Shown here piece after piece: positions 6,526-29,331 of a stretch of 43,851 bases of DNA. The notes beneath the pieces were generated by a model, which had not been told where the DNA came from, ran no database searches, and was given only the letters and a program-made list of their open reading frames with translations. Position numbers and translations under genes: made by a program. This stretch comes from a virus, in the IMG/VR virus record IMGVR_UViG_3300044987_001359, positions 1 through 43,851 of that record, one strand, 5' to 3'. How positions within the stretch are numbered: the first letter of the stretch is position 1; every line of letters starts with the position of its first letter.

Positions 6526-6554
6526 ATTATATGTGCAAATGGTTCAGAAGTCAA
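6526..6554 (-). promoter_or_regulatory. Sigma-70 promoter, predicted leaderless
   Basis: Minus strand: -35 TTGACT (6549-6554), 17-bp spacer, -10 TATAAT (6526-6531). Only six bases (AAGTGT) separate the -10 from the ATG at 6519, so the predicted start of transcription falls on the start codon. Confidence 0.9.
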
Positions 6555-6565
6555 GCAAAAGTTTT

Positions 6566-6582
6566 GTTAGCAAATTGCTAAC
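6566..6582. other. Short palindrome at operon boundary
   Basis: Perfect 8-bp inverted repeat GTTAGCAA-A-TTGCTAAC spanning the stop codon of the 6578-6772 gene and lying 12 bp upstream of the -35 at 6549-6554. A six-bp stem with a five-base loop could form. On the minus strand it is followed by AAAAC, not a U-run, so termination is uncertain; an operator is the other possibility. Confidence 0.45.
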
Positions 6583-6772
6583 TTTTTGGCTCGCATTTGT
6601 GCAGTTTGGCCTCAGTTTCCTTCAACCAAATACCTTCGCAAAGCGTACATCTAAATGCTACACCGTCTGTATCAAATGGATATTTTGGCTGGCCACCTAA
6701 GTATTTTTCATATGAAGGCCTAACCCCGTTGGCACTAATTGTTCTAATCTTTTCTAGGTATGTCTTTTCCAT
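6578..6772 (-). CDS. Small zinc-finger-like protein
   Basis: A 64-residue protein with a probable C2HC-type site: CTLC (residues 42-45) and H58-x-C60 near the end, around GIWLKETEAKLHKCEPKS. The first 40 residues are basic and carry GGQPKYPFDTDGVAFR. It overlaps the upstream gene by 29 bases and ends the envelope/lysis operon. Nucleic-acid binding is plausible but not shown. Confidence 0.7.
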   Translation of the reverse strand: MEKTYLEKIRTISANGVRPSYEKYLGGQPKYPFDTDGVAFRCTLCEGIWLKETEAKLHKCEPKS

Positions 6773-6977
6773 TTATAAAATCCCATGCTCTGCATTCTGC
6801 TTCTGCATATGAAGCGGCAAGTATATTAAATTGAGCTATACCATCTTTATTTATTTTTACATCAAATGGGACCGGTCCTCGGAATACTAATGAGTGAGCC
6901 AACGGTATGACTACTTTATAATATTTCAAAGACTTCCATCGCTCCATTAAATTATCAAACTTTTCGTCTTCGGTCAT
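6744..6977 (-). CDS. Hypothetical protein
   Basis: A 77-residue soluble protein (MTEDEKFDNLMERWKSL...). The central part is beta-like (KYYKVVIPLAHSLVFRGPV) and the C-terminal part contains 'AASYAEAECRAWDFING', which resembles the end of small phage domains that bind via an alpha/beta sheet. No family recognised. Separated by 26 bases from the SleB hydrolase upstream. Confidence 0.7.
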   Translation of the reverse strand: MTEDEKFDNLMERWKSLKYYKVVIPLAHSLVFRGPVPFDVKINKDGIAQFNILAASYAEAECRAWDFINGKDIPRKD

Positions 6978-7003
6978 ATTTTAATTTAAGTTCTCAATTG
7001 GCA

Positions 7004-7573
7004 TTATCCTCGATCTCCGTAAAAGGTATGCCTGCCTATTTTAGCAAGTCTTCGCTTTTTCCATACCGGGCTTACTTCCTCATTGTGAAAATACAGTGCA
7101 GTCTTTAATTTCTTATTGCCATGTTTTTCAAAAATAATCATATTGGCAGCACGAGTACTTTCATCCCATTTTGCTTTATTTATTTTCTTATCTCTATAAT
7201 TTTCGCAGTACCAACTGAATTGACAAATTGTTTTTTCATTTACTGCTGTTTTCTGTTGTACAACTTCACATATAGAATGTGGGAACTTGCCGGAATTTAC
7301 TCGGTTTAATGTAACCTGAGCAACAGCAATTTTACCTTCTAATGATTCACCTGCTGCTTCGAAATAAATGTTTCGTGTTAAGCATGCGTGTTGTTTTTTT
7401 AATTCTTTTGCCTTTGCATATTCTTTCTTTATGTATTGTGCGTCAACTGTCTTTGCGTTGACGACATAAAGATTTGTATATGTACAAAGTAAAAGCCCTA
7501 GGGCGAAAGCTTTAAAGAACTTCGTTGTTAAGCTAATCGTTTTTTTGATTTTGCTCTTCGAACTTATTTCCAT
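7004..7573 (-). CDS. SleB-family cell-wall hydrolase (endolysin candidate)
   Basis: A 189-residue protein. Residues 18-39 are hydrophobic after a Lys-rich start and form a signal or signal-anchor segment; the catalytic domain covers about 60-189. It carries the Hydrolase_2/SleB signature: CLTRNIYFEAAGE (64-76, candidate catalytic Glu72), GKIAVAQVTLNRV (80-92), a QFSWYC block (118-123) and the terminal YFHN/TFYG strand motifs. The family cleaves the glycan backbone of peptidoglycan. AGGAG lies six bases before the ATG. It shares an operon with an LPP20-like lipoprotein and a DUF4384-like exported protein. The N-terminal anchor suggests a secreted or SAR-type lysin; no holin is obvious beside it. 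Confidence 0.92.
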   Translation of the reverse strand: MEISSKSKIKKTISLTTKFFKAFALGLLLCTYTNLYVVNAKTVDAQYIKKEYAKAKELKKQHACLTRNIYFEAAGESLEGKIAVAQVTLNRVNSGKFPHSICEVVQQKTAVNEKTICQFSWYCENYRDKKINKAKWDESTRAANMIIFEKHGNKKLKTALYFHNEEVSPVWKKRRLAKIGRHTFYGDRG

Positions 7574-7601
7574 TTACTTCTCCTGGTTGTGAATAAGTTT
7601 A

Positions 7602-8195
7602 TTACTGTTTTGCGTTGCGGCGTGCTGTCTCTACTTTCTTTTCTAATTCGTTAAATGATTTGCTTGCTCGCAACTTGGATTCCATTACAGAATTACTTTT
7701 AATCTTTTCAATCAACACCCGATTCATTTCTCCTAATGGGTATTTGATTAAAATATACGCAACATAATGCGTGTCCTCAATAATTATTTTGCAATCTTCT
7801 TGCTGCACTCCGTGTAGTTTAGCTAATAGAACATCCTGAGATGTCGTAACCGAATTCATATTAGAGATAGTAGGATCTTGCCCTGCTTCATCCATGAACA
7901 ATTTAATATTAGCATTAATCTCTCCTTCGATTGATAATGCCAATTGAGCACGAGCAAGGGCAGTTGCTTTAATTACTGCCATTTGCATATCATGCGACTT
8001 TGCGGTTGCTTTCTCATATAGTGCATAATTATCTACAGGTGGCTTAAGAAACCAAGCAGGCGCAGCATCTAGCGTCTTAGTCATTTCCTTTTTTGTTTCT
8101 TCTTTTTGCGCTTTGAATGCTTCGTATGTACCCGGCTTAGGTGTTCCGCAACCAAATAACGCAATGCTACCTGCAATAATGATTAATTTTTTCAT
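7602..8195 (-). CDS. LPP20-like lipoprotein
   Basis: A 197-residue lipoprotein: residues 1-15 are a signal peptide and IALFGC gives a lipobox with Cys16. After a charged linker, APAWFLKPP (45-53) followed by AVIKATALARAQLALSIEGEI resembles the start of the LPP20/FlgP domain, and residues ~115-180 continue as alternating strands (DTHYVAYILIKYP). Known LPP20-domain proteins are outer-membrane-associated lipoproteins, some part of flagellar or surface complexes. It lies between the DUF4384-like gene and the SleB hydrolase in one operon. Such a lipoprotein is unusual in a phage; host acquisition is likely. The domain call is from pattern memory. Confidence 0.8.
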   Translation of the reverse strand: MKKLIIIAGSIALFGCGTPKPGTYEAFKAQKEETKKEMTKTLDAAPAWFLKPPVDNYALYEKATAKSHDMQMAVIKATALARAQLALSIEGEINANIKLFMDEAGQDPTISNMNSVTTSQDVLLAKLHGVQQEDCKIIIEDTHYVAYILIKYPLGEMNRVLIEKIKSNSVMESKLRASKSFNELEKKVETARRNAKQ

Positions 8196-8206
8196 GAATG
8201 TATCTC

Positions 8207-8986
8207 TCAGTTTGGTGCCATTATAAAATAGGGTATGCGAACTACTCGACGTTCATTACGAGGTATTTCAAGTAGTCTTTCATTAAACTCTGTAAAAGTA
8301 AACTTCTCTCTAAAAGTTATTTCTTTTTTTGTTGCAACAGCAATTACCATCTCACCCGCTAAATTACCGCTAATCTTTGGAAACTCTGCATTAATCTTAT
8401 AACTATTTTTTGTAGGTATATTAGTAACCTTTGTAATCTTTTTACTTGAATCATATCGATTCGGATATATTAGTTGTATATCTTCGGTATGAGGAGAATA
8501 TACAAATAAATTCAAGTACATATCCGAGGTTGGCTTAACAATGTAAGTAATTGTCTCACCATCTCGCAAACGAGTTTGAACCATTTTTATTTCTGGATCA
8601 AATGATACATCTGCAAAACCTTTTTCTTTCTGTATCTTTACCTTTGCTGATACAGTACATACCTTTTTACCGGGCAATGTGGTTACTTCTTGATGCACTC
8701 GTTTTAATCCGGTAACCGTACCTTCAGTATACATAATTGCTGATGATAACATTCTGCAAACATCTGCTCTGTTATCATCGCATGTCTGAAACTGAGAAAC
8801 TGAAATTGATTCTCCCTTAGTGCGTCTAAGTACATCTAATACTGCTAAGTCTTCCGCTGCTTTACATGCAACCTTTTCTGAAGTTTCTACACCAAAATAA
8901 TACTCACCGCGGGAATCGTACCATTCCGCTATTGCCAAACTAGGAAGGAAAAGACACCCTACCATTAATATTTTGGACAAATTCAT
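8207..8986 (-). CDS. Exported DUF4384-like protein
   Basis: A 259-residue protein with a clear signal peptide (residues 1-20, cleavage near SLAIA-EW). Residues 25-130 include an Ala-rich helix (KVACKAAEDLAVLDVLRR) and paired Cys (CDDNRADVC), reminiscent of FlgT/LPP20-associated N-terminal domains. Residues ~135-250 resemble DUF4384: ETITYIVKPTSDMYLNLFVYS followed by IQLIYPNRYD, then strands ending RVVRIPYFIMAPN. DUF4384 often pairs with surface lipoproteins. It is first in the operon under the promoter at 9056-9084, followed by the LPP20-like lipoprotein. Periplasmic or outer-membrane location is expected; the precise job is unknown. Confidence 0.78.
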   Translation of the reverse strand: MNLSKILMVGCLFLPSLAIAEWYDSRGEYYFGVETSEKVACKAAEDLAVLDVLRRTKGESISVSQFQTCDDNRADVCRMLSSAIMYTEGTVTGLKRVHQEVTTLPGKKVCTVSAKVKIQKEKGFADVSFDPEIKMVQTRLRDGETITYIVKPTSDMYLNLFVYSPHTEDIQLIYPNRYDSSKKITKVTNIPTKNSYKINAEFPKISGNLAGEMVIAVATKKEITFREKFTFTEFNERLLEIPRNERRVVRIPYFIMAPN

Positions 8987-9055: not shown

Positions 9056-9084
9056 ATTATATAATCTTTTGGCGCGGAAGTCAA
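9056..9084 (-). promoter_or_regulatory. Sigma-70 promoter of the envelope/lysis operon
   Basis: Minus strand: -35 TTGACT (9079-9084), 17-bp spacer, -10 TATAAT (9056-9061). A leader of about 60 bases with a weak CTATG/CATAG hairpin precedes the ATG at 8986. The -35 abuts the hairpin at 9084-9104. Confidence 0.9.
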
Positions 9085-9104
9085 GACCCAGCGGTGCTGG
9101 GTCT
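9084..9104 (-). terminator. Hairpin at the end of the adhesin operon
   Basis: A 9-bp perfect stem AGACCCAGC / GCTGGGTCT with a 3-base loop, 14 bases after the stop of the 9119-9493 gene. It is GC-rich in an AT-rich genome. The following bases are TTGACTTCC, so the U-tract is poor and the arm runs into the next promoter's -35 element. Confidence 0.65.
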
Positions 9105-14946: not shown

Positions 14947-15276
14947 TTACATTCCTGATAGCATTAGTGATAGCGGATTAAAATCTAATTCTGTTGCGGT
15001 AGAGCTAATTCTACCATTTGCTTCAACTAGTATTTTGTCACCGGAGGACACGGTAGAGCTAATTCTACCATTTGCTTCAACTAGTATTTTGTCACCGGAG
15101 GACACGGTAGAGCTAATTCTACCATTTGCTTCAATCGTTGTAAATGTGCCCGCAATTAACAAATCAGCTACTGCACCTGTAGATATATTATTTGCGGTGA
15201 TTGCAGCAGGAGCTATATTAGTTGCGGTGATTGCAGCAGGAGCTATACCGCTACTTTTAATTTTAGTTAAAGCCAT
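14947..15276 (-). CDS. Repeat-rich short fibre protein
   Basis: A 109-residue low-complexity protein. An N-terminal pair of AAIT(A)NNI-type repeats (30-bp DNA repeats) is followed by 18-residue repeats, ILVEANGRISSTVSSGDK, of which two copies are identical at the DNA level, then TELDFNPLSLMLSGM. The C-terminal 'LLxGM' resembles the ends of the 36087-36548 and 37775-39571 proteins. A strong AAAGGATTAAT leader and an exact TATAAATA box precede it, so late expression is expected. Probably a short fibre or coat component. Confidence 0.82.
   Translation of the reverse strand: MALTKIKSSGIAPAAITATNIAPAAITANNISTGAVADLLIAGTFTTIEANGRISSTVSSGDKILVEANGRISSTVSSGDKILVEANGRISSTATELDFNPLSLMLSGM
15001..15133. 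repeat. 54-bp tandem repeat (about 2.5 copies)
   Basis: Copies at 15001-15054 and 15055-15108 are identical; the start of a third lies at 15109-15133. It encodes the 18-residue repeat of the 14947-15276 protein. Perfect identity suggests recent expansion or slippage. Confidence 0.95.
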
Positions 15277-15300: not shown

Positions 15301-15308
15301 TATTTATA
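15301..15308 (-). promoter_or_regulatory. T4-type late promoter box TATAAATA
   Basis: An exact TATAAATA on the minus strand, 25 bases before the start of the 15276 gene and its AAAGGATTAAT leader. It is the only exact match to the T4 late consensus that I found; it marks the start of the second adhesin operon. Confidence 0.75.
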
Positions 15309-16064
15309 TTATCCGAAGTCTTTATTTTCTATGTTAAATACCGAGCTTTTGTCAATTTCGATTGAATATTTTGAGTTTTTTGGCCGAATCTTATGTTTTC
15401 TTTGATGTAGAAGCATATTCGCAGCTATAACTAATAAAATAGCTAACGGGTCAAATACAAACATCAATGCCATAATAATAAGACGAACTGCTCGATCAAT
15501 TGTTTCCATATCATTTTTCTGATATACTAGCTCAGAGATATATCGAATAGGGCCAATATCAGCATTCTGTTTATTTTTGTTTTTTTGTATTTCGCCAAAA
15601 TCCTTAGTTAATGTAGAAATTCTATTTTGTGAATTCTGAATTTCCGCATCTAATTTTTTATTCGACGTTTCTCTTTTAGATTGCCTATCTAAAAGATTAT
15701 CCAACCGCCTACGTTCTATATCTATTAAATTTTTAGTAGTTGTTATTTGTGTTTCACTATCATATATTCCAGCAGAATCAGATGTATATGATTTTGATAG
15801 ATAACCAAAAATACCCAAGGAGGTAATAATAGATAATATGATAATACTAATGACGAAATACGTCTTCATTAATATATTAATTTTGTTCCATTGTCTATAT
15901 ACAAACGATGCAGTAACAAGCTTTCCAACCTCAAGTATGCAACCCATAATAACTATAGGTAGTACATTTGCAGAGAATATATGAGCCAATCCTACAATTG
16001 AAAAATACCCCGCTATGCCTGAAATTGCGAATGCCGTTAATAATAAAATTACTGCGAATATCAT
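15309..16064 (-). CDS. Membrane protein with coiled coil
   Basis: A 251-residue protein with three hydrophobic segments in the first ~100 residues (1-25, 30-52, 66-90), a soluble coiled-coil region (~110-170; NLIDIERRRLDNLLDRQSKRE, SQNRISTLTKDFGEIQ) and one more pair of helices (~190-220; IIMALMFVFDPLAILLVIAA), with a charged C-tail. The layout fits a phage 'coil-containing' membrane protein seen in marine myoviruses. Last gene of the metabolic operon before the late box. Holin/spanin-like function is speculative. Confidence 0.75.
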   Translation of the reverse strand: MIFAVILLLTAFAISGIAGYFSIVGLAHIFSANVLPIVIMGCILEVGKLVTASFVYRQWNKINILMKTYFVISIIILSIITSLGIFGYLSKSYTSDSAGIYDSETQITTTKNLIDIERRRLDNLLDRQSKRETSNKKLDAEIQNSQNRISTLTKDFGEIQKNKNKQNADIGPIRYISELVYQKNDMETIDRAVRLIIMALMFVFDPLAILLVIAANMLLHQRKHKIRPKNSKYSIEIDKSSVFNIENKDFG

Positions 16065-26451: not shown

Positions 26452-26793
26452 TTAGAACAAATTTTCCATTTTAACGTGAGCAAGTACATACCCTGCGACC
26501 ATTGCTCCGCCCATTATCATCCATCGCCATTTTTCAATTTTACCAATTTTTTCCAAAACTTCGTGATTGTGCCTAGCGCTAGTTTCACTATGAGCGTCAA
26601 TTTTTTCTATAATCTTTTCGTTTTTATGTTCAAACTCCGATCCAAGATCATTGATACGCTCATGTAAAATTACATAGTTATCTTCCATCTTCTTCTCAAT
26701 CTTATCAAAATCATTAGTTAACGAATTGATTTGAGTTTCCAATACCGAAACTCGTATATCGGTGTCAAGATCACGTATGTTGTTTGTAGCCAT
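26452..26793 (-). CDS. Coiled-coil membrane-anchored protein
   Basis: A 113-residue protein with a long coiled coil (about residues 12-85, VSVLETQINSLTNDFDKIEKK, DLGSEFEHKNEKIIEKI) and a C-terminal membrane segment (RWMIMGGAMVAGYVLAHV, 90-107). The shape resembles XhlA-like or tail-anchored phage proteins. Its start abuts the stop of the upstream gene (one base apart). Lysis accessory or membrane anchor is conceivable; no proof. Confidence 0.75.
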   Translation of the reverse strand: MATNNIRDLDTDIRVSVLETQINSLTNDFDKIEKKMEDNYVILHERINDLGSEFEHKNEKIIEKIDAHSETSARHNHEVLEKIGKIEKWRWMIMGGAMVAGYVLAHVKMENLF

Positions 26794-27355: not shown

Positions 27356-27745
27356 TTAAATCTTCTTTAAAGTTTCTAATACGGTTTCATCTAACGGTAT
27401 ATCATTATCTACTATTTCTACACCGGTTGTTACTATAATTTTTATAGGCATATAGTTTAAAAATACTAGGAAAGTTTTTATTTGAGGCCAAAATTTTTCT
27501 TCTAATTTAAAGAATAACATTTTAGTTGTTGCCTCAACACCAAATAAATTTCCTAGTATAATTATATGATTAAGTATTAATCTTTCTTTAAGATCCTTGC
27601 CCACATCATGTTTACGAAGTAATCGTTTAATATATTTAAATCGTTTTAAATCGTCGTAAAACTCATCCATACCGAGGCACCCCGGATTGTCATAGTGTTT
27701 TACTGCAAACATTACAAAATTATCTTCAGTCAATTCAAATATCAT
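27356..27745 (-). CDS. Conserved T4-like phage protein (DUF7207-like)
   Basis: A 129-residue helical protein. GMDEFYDDLKRFKYIKRLL, LKERLILNHIIILGNLFG and KTFLVFLNYMP are signatures I associate with a conserved T4-like phage protein of unknown function (DUF7207 from memory). It overlaps the protease stop by four bases. Usually found in the tail/late gene region; a chaperone or assembly role is possible, not shown. Confidence 0.78.
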   Translation of the reverse strand: MIFELTEDNFVMFAVKHYDNPGCLGMDEFYDDLKRFKYIKRLLRKHDVGKDLKERLILNHIIILGNLFGVEATTKMLFFKLEEKFWPQIKTFLVFLNYMPIKIIVTTGVEIVDNDIPLDETVLETLKKI

Positions 27746-29331
27746 TGTGTTAAGTTAATCGCTCCTGATACCAAAGTCATTGGACCAGATACAAGAGTAT
27801 CCGAATCTATACCAAATGGGTTATATACAAATCTATTATTTCCACCTAGCAATGATCTAGTATTAGTATAATCATTGTTGATGTTAGAACTATATATGGT
27901 GGTATTGCTTACCGATTTTCCTAAGAACCAAGATTTAAGTTGATTTGGTCTTACTCCGGGATTTATTTGTAAATACAGTGCACCAAGTCCACATACCTGA
28001 GGTGCAGCCATTGATGTTCCGCTTAAAATAACTTGTTTAAAACTAGAATCTAAATTATAGGCAACACCGCTAAATGAATTAGTGTTACTAGTGCAACTTA
28101 TAATATTTGATCCCGGCGCCCATACATCAACACCTGGACCGGTTTCGCTTGAATGGGCTTTTTGATCTTGTACTGCAGAAAATACAGTACTATCAATATT
28201 ACCAACCTTAAACGCTTCGTCATCATATGGACTAGATCCTCTGTGATAGAAATAATCTGATCCACCAGAAGTAAAATAATTCTCATAGTCTACTCCGTCC
28301 GGAGTATCTATTTTATGGTAGTTATTTCCCGCAGCAATGATGACATGTATGCCCTCATCAATCATTTCCTGTATATCAACATCAACGGATCCCAATCTAA
28401 AATTAGTAATAAAATTTCCGCCACTAGATAAATTTACTAAGCCAAAATTTGTCCAACGATATGCTGCATTACCTGTAGTATTAGCATCATTGTAAGTAAC
28501 TCCTCTATACAAAACAGAAGATACAGATGAATAGGTTAAACTATATCCCCAGCTCATATTAACAATTGTTGGTCGCTTAAATCCCGTAGATGAATCAATT
28601 GGTTTATTTCTATGCCAAAGTTTAATTACGTCAAAGCAATCTGTAATTGATATCCCAGTACCAGAATCGCCGGCACCTTCAAGACCGTTTACCTTTAAAG
28701 AATATATTTTTGCATTTTTCGCCCAGCCAAAAGTTTTACCCGCTGCTATACCGGCAACATGCGTCCCGTGTCCATCATAATCTCTATAATGATTTGCGTT
28801 CTGTGTACCGCCTAAACCGCTGGCAGTATACCAATTTATCTGTTGTATTCGAGAAGCACCCAAATTGTCTCTAAATTCCGGATGGTTAAGTTCAATGCCG
28901 CTATCCTGTATAACAACATCTACTCCTGTGCCATCTAGTAAATATTTGTAAACATTATCGGTAGTTGTACCCGTACCATAAAGATTGGTTGCGCTGTTTA
29001 TTCTACGCAATCCCCAATTTTTATATGCACCGGTTGATGTCGATGGCTTAGTAAAATCTCCAACCTGTGCACCACGAAATCCAATTTTTATATCGTCTCG
29101 TTGTTCAGGTGGAATTTCTACGGAATATACTCTAGAATCATTTTTTAATATATTTGCTTCTTCATCTGTTAACGAATAATGGCAACTTCTTGTGCTACCA
29201 TCTCTATTATTTACTATATCTATTTTTCTATCAGGAATGAATGGATGTGCATTCGTAGGAGACTCCATCTCCTGCCAAAATGAGGTATAATCTACATTTT
29301 TTTGTAAACTTACAATATATTCTTTAAACAT
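27742..29331 (-). CDS. Subtilisin-like serine protease (S8), virion-associated candidate
   Basis: A 529-residue protein. Residues ~1-85 look like an inhibitor-I9-type propeptide or N-domain (FKEYIVSLQKNVDYT, SLTDEEANILKNDSRVYSVE). The catalytic domain carries Asp143 (VVIQDSG), His188 (GHGTHVAG), the oxyanion Asn336 (AAGNN) and Ser440 (SGTSMAAP). The C-terminal 60 residues end VSGPMTLVSGAINLTQ, unlike a signal peptide, and there is no secretion signal. Position directly after glycine-rich and collagen-like fibres suggests a virion component or a fibre-processing protease. Eight-base overlap with the upstream adhesin gene. Known phage S8 proteases are rare; function here is inferred. Confidence 0.92.
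   Translation of the reverse strand: MFKEYIVSLQKNVDYTSFWQEMESPTNAHPFIPDRKIDIVNNRDGSTRSCHYSLTDEEANILKNDSRVYSVEIPPEQRDDIKIGFRGAQVGDFTKPSTSTGAYKNWGLRRINSATNLYGTGTTTDNVYKYLLDGTGVDVVIQDSGIELNHPEFRDNLGASRIQQINWYTASGLGGTQNANHYRDYDGHGTHVAGIAAGKTFGWAKNAKIYSLKVNGLEGAGDSGTGISITDCFDVIKLWHRNKPIDSSTGFKRPTIVNMSWGYSLTYSSVSSVLYRGVTYNDANTTGNAAYRWTNFGLVNLSSGGNFITNFRLGSVDVDIQEMIDEGIHVIIAAGNNYHKIDTPDGVDYENYFTSGGSDYFYHRGSSPYDDEAFKVGNIDSTVFSAVQDQKAHSSETGPGVDVWAPGSNIISCTSNTNSFSGVAYNLDSSFKQVILSGTSMAAPQVCGLGALYLQINPGVRPNQLKSWFLGKSVSNTTIYSSNINNDYTNTRSLLGGNNRFVYNPFGIDSDTLVSGPMTLVSGAINLTQ

Follow-up and report, generated by a model that had tools for sequence, protein, structure and literature searches.

Why would a phage place an outer-membrane-type lipoprotein and a second exported protein directly ahead of a cell-wall hydrolase, behind a promoter of an apparently early class? 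The question is raised by a 43,851-base virus record (IMG/VR record IMGVR_UViG_3300044987_001359; this whole stretch of DNA is referred to as the window). A sequence-only reading of the window had placed at 6578-8986 a DUF4384-like protein, an LPP20-like lipoprotein and a SleB hydrolase under a dedicated sigma-70 promoter. That interval is correct: the open reading frame (ORF) list and a promoter scan show a five-ORF unit on the minus strand, running from 8986 to 6578, in which one TTGACT-N17-TATAAT promoter precedes the genes for a DUF4384 protein (ORF1), an Lpp20-fold lipoprotein (ORF2) and an exported SleB-type hydrolase (ORF3). We favor, tentatively, an envelope cassette in which the outer-membrane lipoprotein and its periplasmic partner would position or restrain the exported lysin.

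ORF1 bears its DUF4384 name on the strength of a Pfam scan, in which residues 140-221 matched PF14326 (E = 6e-9; 36.3 bits, cut-off 27). Its predicted structure, with a predicted local distance difference test score (pLDDT) of 69, consists of a beta-alpha-insert-beta-beta domain followed by a beta-sandwich; the N-terminal domain carries the motif GEYYFG-x-ETSE-xx-AC. In the predicted structures, the topology of this domain is similar to that of ORF2, and a profile comparison with the LPP20 family aligned the two in the same register, without significance (E = 0.1 and 0.19); thus, it is only the secondary structure that suggests a shared origin for these domains. The fold matches of the DUF4384 domain were a GbpA domain and FimC-type chaperones (Z of 8-9.1), which we take to mean an Ig-like beta-sandwich and nothing closer. 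A PDB search with profile A8 gave no match, and tblastn against 50,697 phage records found none for ORF1 and seven matching records for ORF2. Full-length phage relatives of ORF1 were found in the BFVD library (A0A2H4N7W9, 28%, and A0A6J5SDL4, from an uncultured phage and already named DUF4384 domain-containing protein) and in locus L108 (23%), where the DUF4384 region does not score, an LPP20-like lipoprotein lies next downstream, and SleB is not next.

ORF2 itself has no match to the Pfam LPP20 family (PF02169), and it received its name through a homolog, the family profile and the fold. The homolog (locus L021; 31% identical, tblastn 6e-22) reaches 29.5-30.7 bits, above the LPP20 cut-off of 25.9; the corresponding protein of the pelagiphage Mosig (17.9-18.8 bits) and the bacterial ORF2 partners described below (17.4-18.4 bits) lie under it. 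The best PDB match of the family profile is Helicobacter pylori Lpp20 (5ok8, E = 0.0018), on which the ORF2 model (pLDDT 74.7) superposes with Z of 10.4 and a root-mean-square deviation of 2.5 over 105 residues (Foldseek probability 1.00, E = 2.9e-3); the structure matches that follow have Z of 7.7 and less. Family profile and predicted fold together assign ORF2 to the LPP20-like superfamily. The H. pylori protein (HP1456, PDB 5OK8) is like ORF2 in fold and lipoprotein nature, but it is only 16% identical and is not a phage protein. Since profile relations to both DUF4384 and LPP20 were found, the naming of the two proteins in the sequence-only reading stands.

The N-terminal signal and the lipobox, whose cysteine is invariant in 29 of 29 relatives, mark ORF2 as a bacterial-type lipoprotein, with acylation predicted. 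In Escherichia coli, the residue at +2 decides inner-membrane retention, and Gly at this position is no retention signal. The SHS2-like fold of LPP20 is common to FlgP, FlgT and dodecin, and the formation of rings has been linked to an inserted beta-hairpin that follows the long helix (PMC12222027; this and the other papers are cited here from excerpts). In the ORF2 model, residues 105-130 are helical where ring proteins carry the hairpin (pLDDT about 63-75, one prediction); thus, FlgP-type ring formation is not indicated. The previously suggested kinship with the FlgP/FlgT outer-membrane flagellar rings therefore holds at the level of the fold, whereas the insert and the flagellar genes that go with those rings were not seen in the ORF2 model and its locus.

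ORF3 matches PF07486 (Hydrolase_2/SleB; E = 2.7e-24, 86.1 bits, cut-off 27), and solved relatives are available as PDB 4f55 and 4fet. The protein begins with a signal-like stretch, and 39 of 41 distinct SleB hydrolase ORFs have an N-terminal hydrophobic stretch above the cut that we used. Glu72, presumably the catalytic residue, and Cys64, Cys102, Cys117 and Cys123 are invariant columns among 39 full-length phage relatives. These hydrophobic stretches and cysteines fit a periplasmic enzyme. Localization of the cassette products was read from N-termini, lipobox and invariant cysteines, and the export signals noted earlier were found again in the N-termini; we infer export, outer-membrane anchoring and complex formation for these products. 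A PADLOC search (E up to 0.01) gave no match for ORF1 or ORF2, and a 52-residue match of ORF3 to the defense protein BilB (E = 0.005) was taken as chance.

The promoter ahead of the unit is an exact copy of a motif that occurs five times in the window, on the minus strand only (0 on the plus strand), while 500 simulated sequences contained nine occurrences in total (chance of about 0.02). It should be noted that this simulated count is the one to be trusted, one earlier pattern having been built from the sites themselves. Promoter-like sites overall show no excess (78 versus 67.9), and the excess is limited to the exact 11-of-12 copies. The hexamers are identical in the window and in a related contig, G002, and the spacer differs. 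Another exact copy precedes the primase gene; thus, the cassette promoter would fit an early class. The next copy downstream marks the end of the unit. The late promoter TATAAATA has a single copy in the window, at 15301, which leaves the cassette without a recognized late promoter. A hairpin adjoining the -35 box, to which none of 200 shuffles was equal in stability, is probably the terminator of the upstream tail-gene unit. With ratios of nonsynonymous to synonymous divergence (dN/dS) between the window and G002 of 0.06 for ORF1 and 0.08 for ORF2, indicative of purifying selection, both are real genes. The last ORF of the unit has a weak zinc-ribbon-like match (PF13453, E = 0.013; 15.3 bits, below the cut-off of 22).

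Table 1. Features of the cassette unit and its flanks (window coordinates)
Feature	Position	Strand	Remarks
ORF1, 259 residues, DUF4384 protein	8207..8986	-	signal peptide; N-terminal domain; C-terminal DUF4384 beta-sandwich
ORF2, 197 residues, LPP20-fold lipoprotein	7602..8195	-	lipobox LFGC, Cys16
ORF3, 189 residues, exported SleB/Hydrolase_2 peptidoglycan hydrolase	7004..7573	-	PF07486
77-residue ORF of the unit, without family	6744..6977	-	conserved in contig G002
64-residue ORF of the unit	6578..6772	-	conserved in contig G002
Sigma-70-type promoter TTGACT-N17-TATAAT of the unit	9056..9084	-	exact copy
Next promoter copy, start of the GIY-YIG gene unit	6526..6554	-	exact copy
Hairpin GACCCAGC-ACC-GCTGGGTC abutting the -35 box	9085..9103	-	fold z -3.45; stem region conserved
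8-bp leader hairpin between promoter and start codon	9005..9023	-	sequence identical in relatives

Searching 2.9 million viral contigs for the ORF2 family, we obtained 275 confirmed loci, and all locus counts refer to the best 80 of these, which include five near-copies of the window. Room was required on the side in question: 400 bases downstream (78 loci), 900 bases upstream (72 loci), or both (70 loci). SleB is the next gene after LPP20 in 57 of 78 loci, mostly with a 1- or 4-bp overlap, and a protein with the motif GxYxFG precedes LPP20 in 52 of 72; the upstream protein of locus L020, which has N for G in this motif, was left out of the count. The earlier reading had proposed to look for the trio in other phages; all three genes occur together in 49 of 70 loci.

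The same order is found in the cultured Methylophilales phage Melnitz, as gp74 (an exported GEYVFG...AC protein), gp75, gp76 (LPP20-like) and gp77 (a cell wall hydrolase). BLASTP aligns gp74 with ORF1 at 27% identity over 52 residues (E = 1e-5), and gp77 matches PF07486 (E = 1.1e-21; locus L116, MZ577097.1, 42214-42741); the trio is annotated as hypothetical proteins and a cell wall hydrolase. Melnitz and its relatives thus share with the window an exported GxYxFG protein, an LPP20-like lipoprotein and an exported SleB; Melnitz differs, however, in that no DUF4384 was detected in the upstream protein, ORF2 is about 27% identical, and a small gene, gp75, is added. This type of trio recurs in marine T4-like phages. 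Melnitz has been reported without lysin-like genes other than gp67 (PMC9004378); judged by its sequence, gp77 looks like one, and is therefore a second lysin candidate.

Searched by term, PMC9004378 does not mention a lipoprotein, a cell wall hydrolase or SleB, and PMC7029224 does not mention LPP20 or a lipoprotein. In the open library that we searched, we found no description of LPP20 together with DUF4384, nor of these genes in exclusion; the match for DUF4384 with phage was a caspase review, and none of the titles listed for LPP20 with phage concerned this role. New here are the succession of LPP20 and SleB behind an exported GxYxFG protein in marine T4-like phages, Melnitz included, the presence of LPP20 without SleB in the pelagiphages HTVC008M and Mosig, and the occurrence of the DUF4384-LPP20 pair, in the same order and after a Sel1-caspase gene, in three related proteobacterial genomes.

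The bacterial loci were detected in a genome scan that yielded two metagenome-assembled genomes, the betaproteobacterium REEB86 (L101) and the proteobacterium SKS1.bin125 (L102). In both, a relative of ORF1 (28% over nearly the full length) is followed 8-12 bases downstream by a relative of ORF2 (in L101, 37% identical over 199 residues), and an overlapping Sel1-caspase gene precedes the pair (PF00656, E = 1.6e-14 in L101, the one scanned). The run is also found in one more genome of this family (L115; three of 32 genomes). Within the class, a relative of ORF1 occurs in two of 369 genomes, the second of which pairs it with a different lipoprotein. In bacterial locus L112 (1438-3707), the domain is paired otherwise, a DUF4384-like protein being followed by a different lipoprotein with tetratricopeptide repeats. 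The bacterial run thus has the same two genes in the same order and on the same strand as the window, where the distance is 11 bp, but it has a caspase gene that the phage lacks, no SleB immediately after the pair in L101 and L115 (where the next gene is readable), and a C-terminal extension of the LPP20 protein (279-292 residues versus 197 in the phage). Near-copies aside, the nearest full-length relatives of both ORF1 and ORF2 belong to a bacterial gene pair, and the window ORF2 is closer to its bacterial relative than to the other phage relatives seen (31-33% at best). A tree of ORF2 that groups the window with bacteria (84/74 only, with long branches) was not relied on. The simplest account of these sequences would be that the pair passed, in one direction or the other, between a proteobacterium and the phage lineage. 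The earlier suggestion of a host-mimic lipoprotein gains some weight, in that ORF1 and ORF2 match a bacterial gene pair.

In the envelope-cassette reading that we favor, all three products would act in the periplasm, ORF2, with its Gly at +2, sitting in the inner leaflet of the outer membrane with ORF1 bound to it. An exported hydrolase would reach its substrate without a holin, so that a holin could not hold ORF3 back; if made early, such an enzyme must be weak, slow or restrained, and the co-made lipoprotein pair is a natural candidate for the restraint. ORF1 and ORF2 might anchor SleB at the outer membrane and block cutting until enough has accumulated or the envelope is disturbed, in which case an early unit could carry a lysin without early death. 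A likeness in principle, and no more, is offered by SleB-YpeB of Bacillus spores, where a partner may hold SleB inactive (PMC13393411); that system, however, is spore-specific.

The window has other candidates for lysis functions. Overlapping Rz-like and Rz1-like spanin candidates lie at 23839-23363 and 23370-23110, and an XhlA-like small coiled-coil membrane protein (26452-26793, below the Pfam cut-off) is a possible holin-type gene; the outer-membrane fusion step therefore does not need the ORF2 lipoprotein. ORF1-3 themselves had no match to PHROGs spanin families at E up to 1. No lysin other than SleB was recognized among the scanned window proteins (part of the window ORFs), and the lysin genes of Melnitz (GH108), HTVC008M and Mosig have no relative in the window or G002. 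Separately, a membrane protein at 15309-16064 gave weak matches to tetraspanin (below cut-off) and to Rz-like PHROGs. A protease-like protein (PHROGs protease family) adjoins glycine-rich tail genes at 27742-29331, and an identical hairpin-forming stretch is repeated three times with 54-base spacing inside a small tail-region ORF (14998-15123).

Several observations weigh against a restrained lysin. The linkage of LPP20 and SleB has been conserved, though essentially within two lineages: when the loci are clustered at 80% identity, SleB adjoins LPP20 in six of the 14 groups and not in the other eight. Of these six, one is the window type, and the remaining five group with Melnitz to the extent that the tree sampled them. 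In loci L071 and L072, SleB is 5.2-5.6 kb away from LPP20, and the GenBank pelagiphages HTVC008M and Mosig carry LPP20 without an adjoining SleB; the lipoprotein thus has a role without the hydrolase. Between the window and G002, synonymous divergence (dS) is 0.018 for SleB and 0.375 for LPP20; hence, the two have not always travelled together, and the cassette is mosaic. This jump suggests a recombination boundary within the unit (7004-8195). The window and G002 are fragments, and another lysin may lie outside them. A regulatory role of the leader hairpin was dropped, because the fold of the whole leader is not significant (z of -1.39).

An alternative that we regard as unlikely is superinfection exclusion or a change of the host surface, in which an early outer-membrane lipoprotein and its DUF4384 partner would mask a receptor or block DNA entry, SleB being a mere neighbor. 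A strong sigma-70-type promoter of a class found before the primase gene as well, the outer-membrane type of ORF2 as judged from its sequence, and the persistence of LPP20 in phages without an adjoining SleB would suit this role. On the other hand, exclusion would not explain why LPP20 so often overlaps tightly with a cell-wall hydrolase gene, bacteria themselves carry the same pair, and the sequence similarity of ORF2 to known exclusion lipoproteins does not extend past the signal peptide (residues 1-19, with phrog_1119 Cor at E = 0.17). The earlier argument, by which an early-type promoter puts exclusion at least level with lysis, is not supported in that form: lysins under early promoters have been described for Melnitz and for T4 e (PMC9004378).

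Somewhat less probable still is a remodeling of the cell wall for virion or protein assembly, with SleB opening local gaps and an envelope assembly being held by LPP20 together with the DUF4384 protein. The hydrolases bear export signals, about 2.3 kb separates the trio of Melnitz from its GH108 lysin, and a similar idea has been proposed for Melnitz gp67 with CsgGF (PMC9004378). CsgG was found in six of 46 records searched; however, neither the window nor G002 (both fragments) contains it, and it is not adjacent in Melnitz (51.3 kb versus 40.8-42.7 kb) or HTVC008M (8.2 kb versus 137 kb). A link to curli, or type VIII secretion, was rejected for the same lack of adjacency. In phages of the HTVC008M type, LPP20 is preceded by small exported proteins, which could not be convincingly aligned with ORF1.

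We consider improbable a decoy or immunity role, in which the phage would produce the pair that accompanies an exported caspase in bacteria and so disarm a host caspase system. The pair does follow a Sel1-caspase gene in three related bacterial genomes, and the phage has no caspase gene, but nothing indicates that the bacterial operon serves in defense (PADLOC gave a general caspase match only, E = 6.1e-7), the operon is rare in its class, and SleB is not explained. A combination of this idea with the restrained lysin, by which the two companions, captured without the caspase, would both disarm the host system and hold the lysin at the outer membrane, is a shade more improbable; if true, the phage would have turned a captured bacterial cell-death module into a clock for lysis. 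Finally, a flagellar H-ring or basal-disk mimic, forming an FlgP/FlgT-like ring in the outer membrane, is very improbable: the LPP20/SHS2 fold is held in common and a Campylobacter flagellar motor entry (9hmf, E = 0.41) stands low in the structure list, but neither the ring-forming insert in the ORF2 model nor any flagellar neighbors in phage or bacterial loci were seen.

These results draw attention to LPP20-like genes that lie unannotated, and frequently beside a hydrolase, in phages infecting abundant marine bacteria (HTVC008M, Mosig and Melnitz). The comparison of cassettes yields a second candidate for a lysin in Melnitz and connects phages with a bacterial run of caspase, DUF4384 and LPP20 genes that has received little study. 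The envelope-cassette view would offer a concrete hypothesis, of lysis or of exclusion, for marine T4-like phages, in which lysis is poorly understood.

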